A stretch of DNA of 64,000 bases, from contig NZ_MUHF01000007.1 in NCBI RefSeq assembly GCF_002217435.1, forward strand, positions 32,950 to 96,949, in the 5' to 3' direction. A model generated the notes under the pieces. That model was not told the DNA's origin and did not search any database. It worked only from the letters and a program-made list of their open reading frames with translations. The position numbers were made by a program, and so were the translations under genes. Positions 4,493 to 32,831 of the stretch are shown here, piece after piece. This stretch comes from Flavobacterium reichenbachii (GTDB lineage Bacteria; Bacteroidota; Bacteroidia; Flavobacteriales; Flavobacteriaceae). Every line of letters starts with the position of its first letter. Position 1 is the stretch's first letter.

Positions 4493-4610
4493 TTGTAGCT
4501 ATCTATTTTTTTAGAAATCGATGTAATTTACAAAGTGTCGTTTTCGGCTTTACACGGGCGTACACAAGGTTTATTACATTTTATAGTAAATGTGTTGTTT
4601 TTTTGTGGCG

Positions 4611-24888: not shown

Positions 24889-25941
24889 ATGACTACAAAT
24901 GATTGGGCCAAACATATTCAGAAATTTCTTTTCCTTTTGAAAGATGGTTTTTTTGAATTGCCGTATTTGTCTAATTCGCCACAAGTAATGCTTGACAGCC
25001 TTATAAAATTGCCTATCATAAATCATACAGCATCAACACAGCTGATTACTACAGATAATGCTTTTTGGAAAGGTAAAATGCGCTATCAAAAAATGGAGGA
25101 AGGCTTCTGGATTTTGGAAACCAATATTCAAATGAAAGAAAATATATTGGCAAAGGCGACTTATACTCAGGATCATCTAAAAGAATATTACATTTTATCT
25201 TTTTCTGTTTTCGAATATAAATTTCCTGTAAAGCAAGATCAGAATATTATTTTGTTGAGCACTTGCTGGACTTTTTATAAGCCCGATACTGAGATCGCAA
25301 CTTATTTTTATAAAGAAACAGAAGGCAAGTTTTTTAATATTGCTATGAATAAGGAATGGGTTCATAAGAATATAAAATCGGGTAAATTTTGCGATAAGGG
25401 AGTTCTGGAACGTTTTTTTAATAATCAGAAAGGATTTTATACCTGGCTGGATATTGCTCCAAATGCTCATAAACTATCAAAAAAAATATCAAAAATTTTA
25501 GAGCCTGAAAATAACAGCAGTGTCAATATCGAGGCATTACAAAAAAACTGCAGGAAGTTAATTACAGCATTTTTTAACAATGCATTTGAAGACAGTAGAA
25601 TTCCGGATAATATTTCGCTTAGTAATCTGGATTACTTTACTGTGGCTAAAGCAGAGAGGATAATTTTGCAGAATCTGCAGTCTAATTTTTTAGGGATTGA
25701 AAAAATTGCTTCTGAAGTCAATACTTCTCCAACCAAGCTAAAAGCTAATTTTAAAAGCGTATTCGGATTTTCGATGCTGCAATATCACAAAGAAAAAAAT
25801 ATACTTCTGGCAAAACAATTACTTGAAAAATCAGATTTTGAAATTCAAATAATTGCAGTAATAACAGGCTATGAAAGTGCGAGTAAATTTACTGCAGCTT
25901 TTAAGAAAAGATATGGAGAACTGCCTTCGGATTTTAGATAA
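24889..25941 (+). CDS. AraC-family transcriptional regulator, first of a tandem pair
   Basis: 350 residues from ATG 24889 (MTTNDWAKHIQKFLF). The open frame extends to a TTG at 24823, but this start aligns with that of the next paralog. The C-terminal ~100 residues are the double helix-turn-helix of AraC proteins: FLGIEKIASEVNTSPTKLKA, then FGFSMLQYHKEKNILLAKQL, then GYESASKFTAAFKKRYGELP. The N-terminal ~230 residues are an unnamed sensory domain sharing FFELPYLSNSP and MEEGFWIL with the neighbour. It lies 2.2 kb before the adhesin gene, whose promoter region holds AraC-like 21-bp direct repeats. Confidence 0.88.
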   Translation: MTTNDWAKHIQKFLFLLKDGFFELPYLSNSPQVMLDSLIKLPIINHTASTQLITTDNAFWKGKMRYQKMEEGFWILETNIQMKENILAKATYTQDHLKEYYILSFSVFEYKFPVKQDQNIILLSTCWTFYKPDTEIATYFYKETEGKFFNIAMNKEWVHKNIKSGKFCDKGVLERFFNNQKGFYTWLDIAPNAHKLSKKISKILEPENNSSVNIEALQKNCRKLITAFFNNAFEDSRIPDNISLSNLDYFTVAKAERIILQNLQSNFLGIEKIASEVNTSPTKLKANFKSVFGFSMLQYHKEKNILLAKQLLEKSDFEIQIIAVITGYESASKFTAAFKKRYGELPSDFR

Positions 25942-25962: not shown

Positions 25963-27024
25963 ATGAATGTAGGAAAGTGGATTAAATTTATAAAAGAGAA
26001 TATTAATTTCTACAGGGATGGTTTTTTTGAACTGCCTTACTTGTCTAATTCCCCAGAAGTTATTGTAAAAAGTATTGTAAATTCTCCATCAGTAAAACAT
26101 GTTGTAGAAGAACAAGCCGTTTACAGAAATAATCCTTTTTCTAAAGGTGTTATGCGCTATCGGGAAATCGAAGAAGGCTTCTGGATTATTGCAACAAGCA
26201 TTACTTTCAAAAAAAATGTAATGCTCAAGGCTATCTACGATAATGATTTTCCGTGTGATTATTATACACTTACCTTTTCGGTTTTTGAGAGTGAAGTAAA
26301 ACTTCAAAATACATTTGCCGATAAAACTCCTTTTTCTAGTAAATATTGGGGGTTTAAAAGACCAGGAACAGAAGTTGGTGCTTATTTCTATAAAGGTTCT
26401 GTCTGCGAATTTTATTTGTACGCCTTTAGCAGGGAATGGGCAGAACACAATTTTTCTTTTGGAGCGCTGCCGGAAGACAATCAGATTAAAAAATTTCTAA
26501 ATTCTGATAAAGGTTTTATTACCTATCAGGATATTGTTCCGAGAGCTGCAGAATTGTCTAAAGAAATTTTGATTAATCTGGAAAAGAACAATCAGGATTT
26601 GTTTAGTAAAGCTATTTTAAAAACACAGACTTTTCAATTGGTAAGTACTTTTTTTAAAAATGCTTTTTTAGATCAGCGAATAGGAAATTTTAATCCGTTG
26701 GAAACTCTGGATTACAGGAAAATTGCAAAAGCAGAAAAATTGCTTTTAGACAACATTACTACTCCATTTTTGGGTGTAGAATATATTGCCGAAAAAGTAG
26801 GTCTTTCGCCAACAAAACTCAAATTGACATTTAAATCTGTTCATGGCGTTTCTATGGGACAATATCATAAAGAAAAGAAAATGCTGCTCGCCATGCAGAT
26901 GATTCAGAATACAGATTTACAGATCAAACATATTGCTTTAGCGACTGGTTATAAGAGTTCTAGCAAGTTTACAGTAAACTTTAAAAGCCGTTTTGGAAAA
27001 ATGCCTTCAGAAATCAGATTATAA
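25963..27024 (+). CDS. AraC-family transcriptional regulator, second of a tandem pair
   Basis: A 353-residue paralog of the upstream protein along its full length: GFFELPYLSNSPEV near the start, IEEGFWIIATSI in the middle, and the C-terminal FLGVEYIAEKVGLSPTKLKL plus GYKSSSKFTVNFKSRFGKMP. It follows after 21 bp, so both come from one transcript. Two related regulators could form heterodimers or divide the two target promoters at 27197 and 27782. The signal they sense is unknown. Confidence 0.88.
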   Translation: MNVGKWIKFIKENINFYRDGFFELPYLSNSPEVIVKSIVNSPSVKHVVEEQAVYRNNPFSKGVMRYREIEEGFWIIATSITFKKNVMLKAIYDNDFPCDYYTLTFSVFESEVKLQNTFADKTPFSSKYWGFKRPGTEVGAYFYKGSVCEFYLYAFSREWAEHNFSFGALPEDNQIKKFLNSDKGFITYQDIVPRAAELSKEILINLEKNNQDLFSKAILKTQTFQLVSTFFKNAFLDQRIGNFNPLETLDYRKIAKAEKLLLDNITTPFLGVEYIAEKVGLSPTKLKLTFKSVHGVSMGQYHKEKKMLLAMQMIQNTDLQIKHIALATGYKSSSKFTVNFKSRFGKMPSEIRL

Positions 27025-27065
27025 TCGCTGTAAAATTCTTCCTTTTTTGTAATTTATAATTTTTT

Positions 27066-27088
27066 CGCCACCATTCGGCGGTATTTTT
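27066..27088 (+). terminator. Weak terminator candidate after the AraC pair
   Basis: CGCC(accattc)GGCG followed by a T-rich stretch; the stem is only 4 bp. Confidence 0.3.
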
Positions 27089-27196: not shown

Positions 27197-27260
27197 GTCG
27201 TAACGGGCTATCGAAATGTCGTATTGGGCTAGTAACCAATTAGATTTCCGTATATTTTTG
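27197..27260 (+). promoter_or_regulatory. Promoter block P1 with AraC-type direct repeat
   Basis: Half-sites GTCGTAACGGGCTA (27197-27210) and GTCGTATTGGGCTA (27218-27231) repeat with a 21-bp period, as at classical AraC sites. After exactly 21 bp comes TATTTTTG (27253-27260), a good -7 box. The same layout recurs at 27782-27845. Confidence 0.75.
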
Positions 27261-27283
27261 TTTTTAACTCTAAATTAAAAAAC

Positions 27284-27403
27284 ATGACAAAAAATTACCT
27301 TAACCTGACGAATTCATTTCGTATTTTTCAAGAAATGCTTTATTTCATATTTTCCAAAAATGATTTAAAGCTGCGCCCTCTACCAATTACAAATAAATTT
27401 TAA
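27284..27403 (+). CDS. 39-residue leader ORF of block P1
   Basis: ATG 23 bp after the -7 box, 39 codons, stop at 27401. The peptide begins MTKNYLNLTNSFRIFQEML. Without gaps it matches the small ORF of block P2 at Met1, Leu6, Asn10, Arg13, Phe15, Gln16 and Leu19. Whether it is translated is unknown; it could be a regulatory peptide or just part of a structured leader. Confidence 0.4.
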   Translation: MTKNYLNLTNSFRIFQEMLYFIFSKNDLKLRPLPITNKF

Positions 27404-27549
27404 AAACGAACTAATTTTGGTTAAATTGAAATCACTCCGTTTAAGTCTGGAATCAAAACTAAATCATCTGGTTTTGATTTTAAGATTTTAAGTTATCGCA
27501 TTTAAAATTAAATTGTGATACTTTTTGCGATTAAGCAAGTTTTTAATTG

Positions 27550-27592
27550 AATTCCTAAAAGTTTTTTTGAAAAGCTTTTAGGAATTTGCTTT
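27550..27592 (+). terminator. Terminator ending the P1 transcript
   Basis: A perfect 12-bp stem AATTCCTAAAAG/CTTTTAGGAATT (27550-27561 with 27575-27586), then a T-rich tail. It would close a transcript of roughly 320 nt from P1. Confidence 0.65.
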
Positions 27593-27781
27593 TTAGCTGT
27601 GTAAAATTCTTTCTTTTTGATGAAATTTTCTAATTTTTCCAGCATACAATTGATTTTTTTTTAAGATTTAATTAACACCGTATTTATACCTGTTTTTATT
27701 TTTAATTTATTGTTTTTCAGGTTTTTAACATCCTTGTTTATAAAGTTTTGAACAGTCTGGCCTGTATGCCAAATCCTGCTG

Positions 27782-27845
27782 GTCGTTTCGGGCTATCGAT
27801 GTGTCCGAATGGGCTATTCCACAATATTATTTCAATATAATTTTG
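27782..27845 (+). promoter_or_regulatory. Promoter block P2 with AraC-type direct repeat (adhesin promoter)
   Basis: Half-sites GTCGTTTCGGGCTA (27782-27795) and GTCCGAATGGGCTA (27803-27816) have a 21-bp period. TAATTTTG follows after 21 bp at 27838-27845. Spacings equal those of P1. It lies about 265 bp before the adhesin ATG with no terminator between, so it should drive the adhesin gene. Confidence 0.75.
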
Positions 27846-27868
27846 TCGGATAAACTAACCGATCCAAT

Positions 27869-27949
27869 ATGATAATAAAACTACTCTTCACCGCGAATGA
27901 TATTCGCAATTTTCAAAAAACTCTTATCATTGATTTGTCTCACCAATAA
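27869..27949 (+). CDS. 26-residue leader ORF of block P2
   Basis: ATG 23 bp after the -7 box, the same distance as in P1. It encodes MIIKLLFTANDIRNFQKTL and a short tail, similar to the P1 peptide. It precedes the adhesin start by 160 bp in a long leader. Translation is unproven. Confidence 0.4.
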   Translation: MIIKLLFTANDIRNFQKTLIIDLSHQ

Positions 27950-28110
27950 GGCAACTTGTATTACAGCAGTTTTTTAAATTCCTTTTTATAAAATAAAAAT
28001 TTGTCTCAGGACAAGATAAAGTTCCATTGTAAGAAACAATTGGAACAGGAATTTTATTGCTTTTTGCAAAATGATAAACTAGAGATTCATAAAAACCAAA
28101 CTCAATAAAT

Positions 28111-31100
28111 ATGAAAAAAAACATTTTATTAATAATTATAATCAGCCTCATGCAAACCTTTACAGTGTTTGCACAAACGCAGGTATATGATATACTAAAT
28201 TGTGGTCCAAATGTAGCCACATGCGCAAGCCCTTATACAGTTAGATACGCTTATCCGAATAATAATTCTCTTCAATTACAATGGACATCAGTAGTCAATT
28301 TGATTCCAGCTAGTATTACTGTAGAGCTGAATTATGCAGTTAATTGTAATGGTGTAGGAAGTAATAATAAGGTAAAATTTAACGGTTCGCTGCAATCTGC
28401 TCAGTCAGTTCCGCCTGCAAATTTGTGTGATTGCAGTCCAATTAGTTCTGCACTTGCTACCTGGACTTTAAATCCGTCAAATTACACTCCCGGAGGAGTC
28501 AACATAATAGATATAGAAGCGATGTCAAGTTTTGAAGGTCTGGAGATTCTTCCAGGTCATCCCGGTGTCTATGCAAGAGTAACTGTAAATTATAGTCCAA
28601 TTCCTGAAATTAATATTAAAGGAGGCACAGTTTCTATTGCAAATGGTGATAGTACACCAACTGCTGGCGACCTTACTGATTATGGAGCAGTATCTCCAGG
28701 AACTCCATTAGATCATACTTTTACAATAGAGAATCTAGGAGGGAATTCTTTATCGTTAACAGGAACACCTATCGTAAGTATAAGTGGCAGTACTGCTTTT
28801 TCAGTACAAACACAGCCAGCTTCAAATACTATAGCGGGTTCAGGTTCAGAGACATTCGCGGTTCGTTTTAATCCTACTTGTACACAAACAGGTTTACAAA
28901 CTGCAGTGATTAGTATTGCAAATGATGATTCAGATGAAAACCCATATACTTTTACTGTACAGGGAACAGGAGTAGACAATGTAAAACCAACTGCAGCGGC
29001 AAAGAACATTACGGTTCAGTTAGGTTCAGCTGGAAATGTTATAGTAAATGCAAGTCAGCTAAATGATGGAAGTACCGATAATTGTGGAATTGCAAACTAT
29101 AAAGCAGCTGCAGGATTTACAGGAACTGCTTGTGGTATTGTTGGAGAAGGCAGTAATTTAAGCTTAAATGCTCCTGCGGGATCCGTTTTTAATAACATTC
29201 TATACGCTCGTTATGGTGTTACATATGGGACTTGCGGAAGTTTTATCCCAGGTTTTTGTAATTCTGGTAATAGTACGTTAGAAGTGACAAATGCTTTTAT
29301 TGGAAAAAATAGCGGCAGTATTGTTGCCGATAATACTACGTTTGGTGATCCTTGCGGCGGAACACCAAAAAATTTAGCGGTTCAGCTTAGTTATGGACCA
29401 GTTGTAGGATCAGAACAAACTTCAATAACTTATACTTGTGCAGATATTGGTATTCACAATGTAACATTATTTGTTACCGACAATAGTGGAAACGTTTCAA
29501 CAGCAGAAGCAACAATAACAGTTCAGGATATTATAATTCCTGTTATTACTGCTGACGGAGATAAAAATGTAAACGCTGACGCAGGTATTTGTGGCGCAAG
29601 TGTTTCGGTTTCTGCCTCTGCGACAGACAATTGTTCAGTTGGAACACCAACCGGAGTAAGAAGCGATGCGCAATTACTAACAGACGTTTACCCTTTAGGA
29701 ATAACAACCATTACCTGGAATGTAACTGACGCCAACGGAAATGCTGCGGCTGCTGTGACTCAAAAGGTAACGGTAACAGACAATCAGATTCCTGTTATTA
29801 CGGCAAATGGAGATAAAAATGTAAACGCTGACGCAGGTATTTGTGGCGCAAGTGTTTCAGTTTCTGCTTCTGCTGCAGATAATTGCTCAGTTGGAACACC
29901 AACCGGAGTAAGAAGCGATGCGCAATTACTTACAGACATTTACCCTGTAGGAACGACAACTATTACATGGAATGTAACTGACGCCAACGGAAATGCAGCA
30001 GCTGCTGTGACTCAAACAGTAACGGTAGCAGACAATCAGATTCCTGTTATTACGGCAAATGGAGATAAAAATGTAAACGCAGACGCAGGTACTTGTGGCG
30101 CAAGTGTTTCGGTTTCTGCTTCTGCTGCAGACAATTGCTCCGTTGGAACACCAACCGGAGTAAGAAGCGATGCACAATTACTTACAGACGTTTATCCTGT
30201 AGGAACGACAACTATTACCTGGAATGTAACTGATGCCAACGGAAATGTGGCTGCTGCTGTGACTCAAACAGTAACGGTAACAGACAATATTCTTCCAACA
30301 GTACTTACAAAAAATATTATAGTTCCGTTAGATGCGTTAGGAACTGTTTCAATATCAGCTTCGGATGTTGATGATAACTCATCTGATAATTGTGGTATTG
30401 CTACAAGAGAATTAGATGTAACATCGTTTACTTGTGCAAATCTTGGTGCAAACACAGTTACTCTTAAAATTACAGATATTCATAATAATGTTTCGACAAA
30501 AACTGCAACAGTAACTGTTGAAGATAAAATTGCACCAACTGTTGCTGCAAAAAATATAATAGTACAATTGGATGCTTCAGGAAATGCTTCAATTGCAGCT
30601 GCAGATGTTAATAATAATTCAACAGATATTTGCGGAACTCCAGCACTGTCTGTTTTCCCTAATACATTCACTTGTGCGAATGTTGGAATCAATACGGTTA
30701 CTTTAACAGCTACAGATGCTAGCGGGAACAGCTCATCTGCAACGGCAACAGTTACCATAGAGGATAAAACTGCTCCAATAGTACTTACAAAAAACATTAC
30801 AGTTCAATTAGATGCTTCAGGAAATGCTTCAATTACAGCGGCTGCAGTTAATAATGGATCAACAGATTCTTGTGGAACCCCATCTTTAACGGTTTCTCCA
30901 AATACATTTACTTGTGCTAATGTTGGAGCAAATACAGTTACATTGACTGCATCAGATGCAAATGGAAATACTTCTACTAAAACGGCAGTTGTAACTGTTG
31001 AAAGTAAAATTGCAGCAGTTGTTTTAACTAAGAATGTTACAGTACAATTGGATGCTTTAGGAAATGCTTCTATAACAGCAGGTCAAATTGATAACGGAAG

Positions 31101-31920
31101 TTCAAGCGCTTGTGGTATTGCTTCTATTACTGTAAATCCACAAACCTTTAGCTGTTCAAATGTTGGAGCTAATACGGTTAGACTTACAGTTGTTGACGTA
31201 AACGGAAACACCTCTTCTGCAACTGCAGTAGTAACAGTTCAGGATATTACTGCGCCAATTGTGATAACTAGAAATATTAGTGTAGAATTGGATGCGTCTG
31301 GAGATGCTTCTATAACTGCAGCTGAAATTAATAACGGAAGTACAGATACTTGCGGAATCACAGCATACACTTTAAGCAAATCTTCTTTTAATTGTACTAA
31401 TGCTGGTGTCAACACGGTTATTCTAACAGTTAGAGACAGAAATGGAAATATAGCAACAGGGACCGCAACAGTTACAGTTTTAAATTCATTTGAAGATAAT
31501 GATTCAGACGGAATTAAAGATAATTGTGACGATGACGATGATAACGATGGAGTTTCAGACCGATCAGATAATTGTCCTTTAGTATCTAATCCTTATCAGG
31601 AAGACAGAAATCATAACGGTCTTGGTGACGCATGTGATTCTGAACAAATGAATATCTCTCAAGCTTTTACTCCAAACGGGGACGGAATTAATGATACTTG
31701 GGTTATTTCTAATATAGAAAGACATCCAAATTCTGTAGTACGTGTTTTTAACCGTTGGGGAACACAAGTATTTATTGCTAAAAATTACCAAAACGATTGG
31801 GACGGACATTACAAAAACAATTCTCAATCACTGCCGGAATCAAGTTCATATTACTATCAAATCGATTTAGATGGAGATGGTACAACAGATAAAGAAGGCT
31901 GGATTTATATCACAAGGTAA
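28111..31920 (+). CDS. Large secreted adhesin with HYR and 80-residue repeats and T9SS type B sorting domain
   Basis: A 1269-residue protein. Signal peptide at 1-21 (ending VFAQ). Residues ~170-290 resemble a choice-of-anchor D/ASPM-SPD2-Hydin-like domain ([18 protein letters not shown]). Three nearly identical ~84-residue HYR-type repeats lie at ~476-726, then five 80-residue repeats at ~727-1126, each with Cys at positions 35 and 49. An Asp-rich, calcium-binding, thrombospondin-3-like stretch follows ([19 protein letters not shown], ~1130-1170). The C-terminal ~90 residues ([29 protein letters not shown]) are the gliding-associated/type B T9SS signal, so the protein is exported through T9SS and attached to the surface with help of the adjacent PorP/SprF protein. 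Confidence 0.9.
29536..30288 (+). repeat. Three tandem ~252-bp HYR repeats
   Basis: Units begin at 29536, 29788 and 30040, exactly 252 bp apart; the last is one codon shorter. They are nearly identical at DNA level, unlike the diverged repeats that follow, so the array is recent or kept uniform by recombination. Confidence 0.85.
30289..31488 (+). repeat. Five tandem 240-bp (80-residue) repeats
   Basis: Five units of exactly 80 residues with no indels, starting [40 protein letters not shown] and [10 protein letters not shown]. Cys occurs only at positions 35 and 49 of each unit. Confidence 0.85.
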
Positions 31921-31943
31921 TTGTAAAAAATAAAATTTTAAAA

Positions 31944-32831
31944 ATGAAAATAATTAAAAATATATTAGCAGGAGCGGTACTACTATTTAGCAGTGTTCTT
32001 TTTGCACAGCAAGAAAGTCTTTTTACGACTTACCGCTACAACATGAATCTTGTAAATCCAGCTTACGTAGGTGTAGATAGAGAAACAGTTATTTCAAGTA
32101 CATTTCGTAATCAATGGACAGGAATAAAAGATGCACCACAGACTCAGGCGATTTCGTTTGGTACGCCGATAGGCAAGAATCTGGGTATTGGTCTTTCTAT
32201 GGTTTACGATAAAACATTTATAGAAAAACAAACTTTAGTAGGATTAGACATTTCTTATAAAATTCAGGTAGGCGCCCTTACAGATCTTTATCTGGGTATA
32301 AAAGCCGGAGGAAACTCTTATAATGTAAATACTTCTGGTCTGGAAACTTATGTAAATCAATCGGATCCTGCTTTAAATTCTATAAGTGAATTTAATCCAA
32401 ACGTTGGAGTTGGTGCATTATTAAAAAATGATAAATTCTACGTTTCGCTTTCTGTTCCAAGGTTGTTAAATACGGAGAGAGCTAAAAATGAAAACGGTTA
32501 TGCTTCTGTTGCAACAGACAGACCACACATTTACCTGAGCGGTGGATACAATTTTGATTTTGAAACTTTGACGCCTTTAGTTTTAAAACCGTCATTTATG
32601 CTTCGTTATGTAAATGGTGCTCCTGTATCGTTAGATGTAAACGCAATGCTTGAAGTTGATGAGTTTATTGAAATTGGAGGAATGTACAGAATTAACAAAG
32701 CATACGGTGCAATTGCCGGCTTAACAATAAGTAAGCTTTTGACTGTAGGTTATGCTTATGAAATAAGCACAGAAACACAGCTTGCAAGTGCTAAAAATAC
32801 AAACGAATTTTTCCTTCGTTTTAAATTTTAA
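31944..32831 (+). CDS. PorP/SprF-family type IX secretion outer-membrane protein
   Basis: A 295-residue beta-barrel protein with a signal peptide (ending LFAQ). The PorP/SprF signature is clear: QQESLFTTYRYNMNLVNPAYVG, then TFRNQWTGIKDAPQTQAIS, then LGIGLSMVYDKT, and a barrel ending in FFLRFKF. Such proteins pair with one T9SS type B substrate, typically encoded next door, and help its secretion or attachment. Here the partner is the adhesin 23 bp upstream, so the two form one operon ended by the terminator at 32890. Confidence 0.92.
   Translation: MKIIKNILAGAVLLFSSVLFAQQESLFTTYRYNMNLVNPAYVGVDRETVISSTFRNQWTGIKDAPQTQAISFGTPIGKNLGIGLSMVYDKTFIEKQTLVGLDISYKIQVGALTDLYLGIKAGGNSYNVNTSGLETYVNQSDPALNSISEFNPNVGVGALLKNDKFYVSLSVPRLLNTERAKNENGYASVATDRPHIYLSGGYNFDFETLTPLVLKPSFMLRYVNGAPVSLDVNAMLEVDEFIEIGGMYRINKAYGAIAGLTISKLLTVGYAYEISTETQLASAKNTNEFFLRFKF

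Follow-up and report, generated by a model that had tools for sequence, protein, structure and literature searches.

A predicted AraC-type operator and its leader beside T9SS surface-protein genes in Flavobacterium reichenbachii and its relatives

The half-sites of AraC operators recur with a period of 21 bp. Among the AraC-family regulators of other phyla, Rns, ToxT and CsvR are linked to adhesins or surface structures. The locus we describe here shares with these three the regulator family and the link to the surface, and it differs from them in phylum and secretion route. The best comparison is E. coli AraC at the araBAD promoter PBAD, where, in the description given in PMC7408454, AraC is centred at -52.5 and acts both as activator and as repressor. 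What the two systems have in common is a regulator with two HTHs and two direct-repeat half-sites (I1 and I2 at PBAD) that lie beside the -35 region with their centre near -52 (PMC7408454). In a structure model, the likeness extends to the fold of the DNA-binding domain, and a weaker similarity of the N-terminal domain is suggestive. Unlike araBAD, our locus has another half-site sequence, a TAnnTTTG -7 box, a regulator beside surface-protein genes and two old tandem paralogues.

T9SS genes are described under other kinds of control. The SprB operon of F. psychrophilum resembles our locus in that it encodes a T9SS adhesin with an SprF partner; it is described under sigma-54 and SM5 promoters, that is, with alternative sigma-factor motifs, and the main text of that paper contains no word beginning with "arac" (PMC9723704). 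In Porphyromonas gingivalis, the T9SS is regulated by PorY-PorX-SigP, presented as a two-component system plus an ECF sigma factor that acts on the T9SS machine and not as a dedicated regulator of one substrate (PMC4800418). Judged by titles and the beginnings of abstracts, none of the papers listed in our searches, which cover few subscription journals, deals with AraC control of T9SS adhesins.

The window analyzed here is a stretch of 64,000 nucleotides from the 5.58-Mb genome of F. reichenbachii (G000). It carries, on the forward strand, the tandem genes for AraC1 (350 aa, 24889..25941) and AraC2 (353 aa, 25963..27024), which are 43% identical. Both proteins show the two-HTH C-terminal domain that marks the AraC/XylS family, with HTH_18 matches above the cut-off (8.8e-18 at residues 273-350 and 5.4e-19 at 275-352). 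The profile of the regulator family matches the DNA-binding domain of AraC, 2k9s, at E = 1.7e-15. In the structure model of AraC2 (pLDDT 88), the C-terminal domain superimposes on AraC/MarA DNA-binding domains at Z 12-14 (on that of AraC at Z 13.3, rmsd 1.8 A over 104 residues). The Foldseek list for this model is topped by Rns, ToxT and CsvR, mainly through the DNA-binding domain, with TM 0.25-0.38 over whole chains. The N-terminal 250 residues of both regulators have no match in Pfam. Residues 49-247 of the AraC2 model align with CuxR (Z 8.9, 3.5 A, 155 aligned residues), with BgaR (up to Z 8.5) and with AraC (Z 6.4-6.8), all near the level of common arrangements, and the resemblance of this part to the sensor domains of the three proteins is suggestive only. 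Membership in TIGR04094, the YSIRK-adjacent regulator, was considered and rejected: the two proteins score 42.1 and 38.2 bits where the cut-off is 200, and they match over the HTH part alone. A terminator-like hairpin followed by TATTTTTGTT lies after AraC2 on the same strand (27065..27081), a call made by pattern in a scan that finds three such elements in the region where 1.8 are expected.

Downstream of the regulators are two promoter blocks, P1 and P2, on the forward strand. In P1, a pattern scan finds a distal half-site (GTCGTAACGGGCTA, 27197..27210) and a proximal one (GTCGTATTGGGCTA, 27218..27231), each of 14 bp and starting 21 bp apart. Then, 21 bp after the half-sites, comes the -7 box (TATTTTTG, 27253..27260), and 23 bp after the box the ATG (27284) of a small ORF of 39 codons (27284..27403) that is probably non-coding. 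P2 repeats this arrangement with the same distances: a distal half-site (GTCGTTTCGGGCTA, 27782..27795), a proximal one (GTCCGAATGGGCTA, 27803..27816), a -7 box (TAATTTTG, 27838..27845) and, from the ATG at 27869, an ORF of 26 codons (27869..27949), which is not conserved as an ORF. Both boxes fit the TAnnTTTG -7 box of Bacteroidota sigma-A. The two 67-bp blocks are 75% identical and spaced 585 bp apart, and every element and spacing that the original prediction had listed for them is present where it was placed. The half-site consensus proposed there, GTCGTnnnGGGCTA, proved too narrow, as the proximal half-site of P2 reads GTCCGAATGGGCTA and the family consensus is roughly GTCnnAnnGGGCTA.

The gap-free alignment claimed for the first 19 codons of the two ORFs holds: 35 of 57 bases agree, above the maximum of 30 in 5000 shuffles (mean 17.0, sd 3.3). 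A covariance model of 11 leaders built without P1 also finds the P1 leader (E = 3e-5). Because of these two results, we regard P1 and P2 as a duplication. The two blocks are in register by descent, and their mutual agreement is therefore not independent evidence. The earlier argument that the shared spacings are very unlikely to be due to chance is sound in that the strict tandem pattern GTCGTnnnGGGCTA-N5-9-GTCnnAnnGGGCTA has two matches in the 5.58-Mb genome, P1 and P2, and none in the reversed control; the inherited register means that other loci are needed. The independent evidence, drawn from sequence comparison, is the equal spacing at diverged loci elsewhere. Single half-sites occur four times in the genome with no mismatch, three of them at the P1/P2 locus. 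With one mismatch there are 41 matches against 147 in the reversed control; for lack of enrichment, a genome-wide call of single half-sites is not feasible. Other scans gave little: a sigma-70 style promoter scan was uninformative (17 found, 16.5 expected), no tRNA was found, and Rfam 15 families had no match at gathering score in the window.

Across the genus, the strict tandem pattern occurs in 7 of 199 genomes, with eight matches and none in the controls. The same seven genomes are those whose best match to the N-terminal part of AraC2 has at least 87% identity, the next genome reaching at most 54%. Seven of the eight matches closely follow the AraC2 orthologue, and the eighth, in G175, has another location. 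In a draw of 395 genomes from the phylum, full-length AraC2 was matched at E <= 1e-30 in only seven, all of this genus. The AraC2 family is thus sparse outside the genus, although a collection of named species does include members elsewhere.

The collection of named species yields 59 loci with AraC2 relatives, at which we scored the 900 bp past the AraC stop codon with a threshold of at least 15 of 20 bases. A tandem site is present at 41 of them (39 at 16 or more), where shuffled maxima range from 7 to 15. The gap from these 41 sites to a TAnnTTTG box is 21 bp in 34 cases and 22 bp in three, and the box is absent in four. The 21-bp period and, mostly, the 21-bp gap are kept down to about 50% protein identity. 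In an alignment of 34 sites, the half-sites, the seven bases between them, the TTC right after the second one and the box are conserved, and other positions mostly carry little information. The loci include relatives from Wenyingzhuangia, Algibacter, Tamlana, Mesonia, Lutibacter and Halpernia; the site of Arcicella is weak (15/20), and that of Ferruginibacter is good (19) and lacks the box. Loci with a single AraC homologue have the tandem site too. The 59 loci are not independent of each other, as there are many close relatives among them (18 near-orthologues at 77-93%), and the named loci and the genome set partly overlap.

The remaining 18 of the 59 loci have no tandem site in the scanned 900 bp. 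For one (L116), the scan started from a 58-aa upstream fragment, and the intact AraC gene (G029, apparently the same genome) has a perfect site. The frame of another is broken or partial (L143), and a third stops at a contig edge (L120). Four loci carry a single perfect half-site (L124, L129, L132, L141), three the TTGACTA form (L133, L136, L137) and two one weaker half-site (L118, L138); six have nothing strong (L104, L126, L128, L139, L140, L142).

In a test of association on chosen genomes, 22 of 26 that have the regulator, and 0 of 26 that lack it, carry a tandem site with at most one mismatch. Twenty-one of the regulator genomes had been chosen by protein search (17 with the site) and five by similarity of the promoter DNA (all five with the site), and 11 regulator-bearing genomes with more distant homologues only were omitted. 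Two of the four misses have GGGATA sites (G003, G010) and the other two have one half-site (G056, G094). A DNA search with P2 and its leader hit 59 of 398 genomes at E <= 0.001, mostly with short, chance-like matches; only in six genomes does the match run from the site to query base 296 or beyond. A genome-wide spread of the motif without these regulators, which would have spoken against the original prediction, did not appear: the tandem motif has two matches in its own genome and none in the 26 regulator-free ones. That the repeats are the AraC-type operator of the adjoining regulators, as first proposed, agrees with the co-occurrence, with the kept period and gap and with a position like that at PBAD. 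By this comparison, the AraC link of the predicted operator is well supported.

A change in the half-site is accompanied by a change in the regulator. Ten paralogues, one of them on contig C30 of the F. reichenbachii genome, have a single site GTCCGAATTGACTA, in each case 21 bp before the box although the pattern allowed 19-23 bp. The paralogue on C30 (L046, G000:C30:1-10000) is the third AraC paralogue seen in this genome; its half-site GTCCGAATTGACTA lies near 4599 on the minus strand, with a 21-bp gap, and it precedes a 269-aa ORF and a long ORF that runs off the stretch. In recognition helix 2, the GGGCTA proteins (30/30) and the GGGATA proteins (3/3) have K, the TGACTA proteins (10/10) have R, and neighbouring residues differ too. 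Recognition helix 1 has the core (T or S)-K-L-K in both groups, which also share the A-box GTC; near this helix, columns 94, 97 and 99 differ between them. These patterns would fit a first HTH that reads the A-box and a second that reads the B-box, as described for MarA (PMC8279559). In the tree, AraC1 and AraC2 fall into two old clades, each of which includes proteins with GGGCTA operators. AraC1 is placed in the larger clade of TGACTA paralogues, yet it retains K, matching its locus. The change from K to R together with the B-box is a single event on one branch of this tree, a consistent case and no statistical proof. The third AraC paralogue of another genome (G184:C26:98872-99492) has an in-frame TGA.

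It is possible that AraC1 and AraC2 divide the labour between them. The idea that each takes one half-site finds no support, since single-AraC species also have two half-sites. By eye, P2 contains a TTCGG/CCGAA inverted pair made up by its two half-sites (27782-27816). In most species with an AraC pair, the distal half-site is GTCGTTTCGGGCTA, in which the central A is missing, and it forms this inverted pair with the proximal half-site. By eye, the pair is absent from single-AraC sites, and it may be a mark of labour division between the two regulators.

P2 precedes a gene for a T9SS type B surface protein of 1269 aa (28111..31920, forward strand; CHU_C 1.2e-26, TIGR04131 1.7e-17), which has HYR, SUEL-lectin and thrombospondin-type-3 matches and, through its type B sorting domain, qualifies as a T9SS substrate. 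The gene that follows encodes a PorP/SprF-family protein (31944..32831, forward strand; TIGR03519, 7.3e-69) and is probably co-transcribed with the adhesin. Within the adhesin gene, 29536-30288 holds three copies of a 252-bp unit with 92% matches, which leaves room for changes in repeat number.

Similar proteins stand behind the operator elsewhere. We tested ten complete downstream ORFs out of a list of 15 for domains, and nine of the ten carry a T9SS sorting domain of type A or B, one of the nine (L132) behind a single half-site; the tenth (L121) has a phage-collar-type domain. The linked ORFs of L119 and L130 have a T9SS sorting domain too. The other domains of the downstream proteins vary widely and include lectin, LRR, HYR and beta-propeller. 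In six AraC-pair loci that we viewed, a PorP-like gene is always present, five share the adhesin C-terminus (GWIYINR), and the N-terminal part of the adhesin is variable; the adhesin ORF of the sixth locus (L041) stops early. Together, L039-L044 and 28111-32831 of the window look as if adhesins had been swapped behind a fixed promoter.

Some tandem sites lie away from any regulator gene. The eighth genus match (G175 contig C5, L045 5058-8350) has no adjoining AraC gene and precedes a 1042-aa T9SS protein with a T9SS sorting domain, an SprB repeat and beta-propeller repeats, which is likely a target in trans. Tandem sites also precede a similar secreted protein (MRTKLLS...) at L171, L180 and L121, with a -7 region that departs from TAnnTTTG; at L171 and L180, the sites are unlinked to the regulator and the boxes do not fit TAnnTTTG.

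In F. johnsoniae, transcription is described as starting 4-5 nt after the -7 box (PMC6847099). If this applies here, +1 is expected at 27265-27266 for P1 and 27850-27851 for P2, as in the original prediction, and the distal half-site spans about -68 to -55 and the proximal one about -47 to -34, with the centre of the pair at about -51. The site thus shows two features of an AraC-type activator operator: direct-repeat half-sites about 21 bp apart, and a position that abuts the -35 region with the centre near -52. From this activator-like position of the predicted site, we infer activation. The missing -33 box is weak evidence for activator dependence, since F. johnsoniae promoters generally are described as having little -33 motif (PMC6847099).

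We propose that one AraC monomer would occupy each 14-bp half-site, with its first HTH on the A-box (GTC) and its second on the B-box (GGGCTA). Two such monomers, arranged head to tail with an offset of 21 bp, would cover about -68 to -34. The promoter would be of the type used by the main Flavobacterium sigma factor, in which the -7 box is strong here and a distinct -33 box is lacking. The N-terminal domain would sense a signal, upon which the regulators would recruit RNA polymerase. From P2 this would give a long transcript in which a structured leader is followed by the genes for the T9SS adhesin and the PorP-like protein. From P1, the duplicate, it would give a short RNA, paralogous to the leader, that ends at a terminator. 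Binding, activation, signal and transcript ends are inferred. As a whole, AraC-type activator-dependent promoters, with leader and adhesin mRNA from P2 and a short terminated RNA from P1, probably are the best explanation of the locus. It had been claimed before that the regulators activate the adhesin from P2 and a second transcript from P1. Of this claim, the AraC operator link stands, activation is argued from position, and the product of P1 is likely a non-coding RNA.

What P2 would transcribe before the adhesin is a leader (27846..28110, forward strand). Among 18 named near-orthologous loci, ten have this leader, and at the other eight the promoter runs straight into a signal-peptide ORF that starts with MK(L/I)KLL (five adhesins, of which L130 is the only one domain-tested, and three short secreted ORFs). 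We aligned 11 leaders, the ten plus P2. Hairpin H1 (GCGAATGATATTCGC, 27893..27907), whose outer G-C pair in P2 is A-U in P1, is kept as GCGAA..TTCGC in 11 of 11 bar one broken inner pair. Hairpins H2 and H3 vary more: H2 (TTGTCT..AGGCAA, 27935..27954) overlaps the ORF stop and has between zero and three of 11 sequences broken per pair, and H3 (GTTCCATTGT..ACAATTGGAAC, 28021..28046) is predicted in P2 alone, with similar strings in relatives by eye (all three on the forward strand). In folding, no shuffled sequence does as well as the P2 leader (z -3.27) or the predicted P1 transcript (z -4.34). RNAalifold finds 11 pairs in each alignment, of which 5 are compensatory in the 12-sequence alignment (term -0.08) and 2 in the 11-sequence one (term +0.32, which is unfavourable). 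A structured leader RNA is therefore likely, with modest covariation. A covariance model of the leader, with 150 candidates scored per genome in 16 genomes, found nothing off-locus at E < 0.1.

The inferred P1 transcript region (27261..27590, forward strand; fold computed over 27266-27600) has no conserved ORF and appears to be a non-coding paralogue of the P2 leader. At 27548..27588, on the same strand, lies a candidate intrinsic terminator with a stem of 19 pairs (3 G-C pairs) followed by CTTTTT, in the same pattern scan with three elements in the region against 1.8 expected. Because of this stem and its CTTTTT, we place the probable end of the P1 transcript near 27590-27600, upstream of P2, and P1 probably yields a terminated non-coding RNA and no mRNA. 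The P1 leader contains a 26-bp unit repeated 2.2 times (27312-27367), and none is reported in the P2 leader.

At three loci (L089, L091 from Flavobacterium sp. LC2016-13, and L092), the adhesin and PorP genes are gone, operator, box and leader are kept, and the next gene of at least 90 codons is convergent. The AraC genes there are, by their substitution rates, under purifying selection (dN/dS 0.04-0.10 against 0.04-0.08 in four adhesin-bearing pairs, with some dS saturated). In these three species, 23-27 of 30 columns are kept in the windows over operator and leader, 13-25 in windows before the site, 0-19 immediately past the leader and 18-24 closer to the next gene. The leader thus is conserved, but no better than the sequence upstream of it; what argues for a function is hence more that the regulators and the operator are intact. 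These species are close in the tree and may share one deletion. G201 and L091 agree in their site coordinates, and a search of the G201 genome with up to one mismatch finds no tandem site besides the one before the leader; further targets with single or weaker sites are possible.

Could the promoter alone matter? The leader would then be a neutral relic of an exchanged or deleted 5' end of the adhesin gene, and P1 a decaying duplicate. We consider this quite possible, if somewhat short of an even chance. The start of the leader resembles the signal-peptide codons of sister adhesins, the covariation is weak in both alignments, and in the three adhesin-less species the leader windows (23-25/30) are kept no better than two windows just before the site (24 and 25). 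P1, moreover, is found in its own genome only: no second tandem site was found within this locus in the other genomes searched (199 of the genus and the association set). However, the neighbouring genes of the adhesin-less species have diverged to dS 0.31-0.69 and conservation drops right after the leader, the same leader stands before adhesins with different N-termini, and both RNAs fold better than all their shuffles. If the leader does have a function, the AraC pair may drive a stand-alone non-coding RNA besides the adhesin. The leader would then act in its own right. In the three species that lack the adhesin, it would be the only local product in evidence, and in F. reichenbachii P1 would supply a second, terminated copy, which might act in trans to tune the adhesin mRNA or further surface genes. 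We offer this proposal tentatively and rate it as rather unlikely.

It is improbable that the small ORF in the leader encodes a functional leader peptide, as in an attenuator, or another short peptide. The ORF is intact, with 25-26 codons and similar peptides, in 7 of the 11 leaders, and pooled over these seven pN/pS is 0.55 in frame (pS 0.30, pN 0.16) against 0.94 and 0.76 in the other frames, which leaves room for a peptide in some species. In the other four leaders (L088, L089, L091, L092), however, it stops at codon 3 while H1 is retained, whereas an attenuator calls for a conserved translated short ORF. The three codon positions also vary about equally in the intact ORFs (11, 12 and 14 of 25), and the first codons look like the MK(L/I)KLL start of sister-species adhesins and may be a relic. 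On the small ORF the original prediction needs correcting, as the ORF is not conserved as such; what recurs is the hairpin-bearing leader.

Repression by the same regulators, which would bind the site and block RNA polymerase until a signal releases them, is compatible with the sequence. AraC itself is described as doing both (PMC7408454), and P1 and P2 could here be the two arms of a loop. However, the site ends at about -34, clear of the -7 box and the start, and two head-to-tail half-sites beside the -35 region are the geometry of AraC at PBAD. Nor is there a half-site of at least 9/10 within 350 bp upstream of the AraC genes at any of the 59 loci, which also speaks against autoregulation through the same site. 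We therefore think repression unlikely. That the motif is the site of another regulator, or that a mobile or structural repeat adjoins the AraC genes by chance, is very improbable: the inverted pair in P2 might suggest a hairpin element, but it is absent by eye from single-AraC sites, and the motif is rare genome-wide, co-occurs with the regulator and keeps its distance to the -7 box across diverged loci.

On this comparative evidence, the regulatory reading of the locus appears well supported. The proposed mechanism is an ordinary AraC-type promoter of a little-studied phylum, one that has a clear operator and would serve a dedicated T9SS target. An operator that can be read from sequence alone is now assigned to AraC regulators whose genes adjoin those of T9SS surface proteins, for the most part in Flavobacteriaceae. 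Our literature search showed no description of single T9SS substrates under local control there. The motif serves to find targets, including unlinked ones, and the paralogues offer a natural, testable change in predicted DNA specificity. The leader RNA is a more interesting point than the promoter mechanism. Should this RNA function by itself, it would represent a small RNA that is driven by AraC proteins and connected with surface adhesion.
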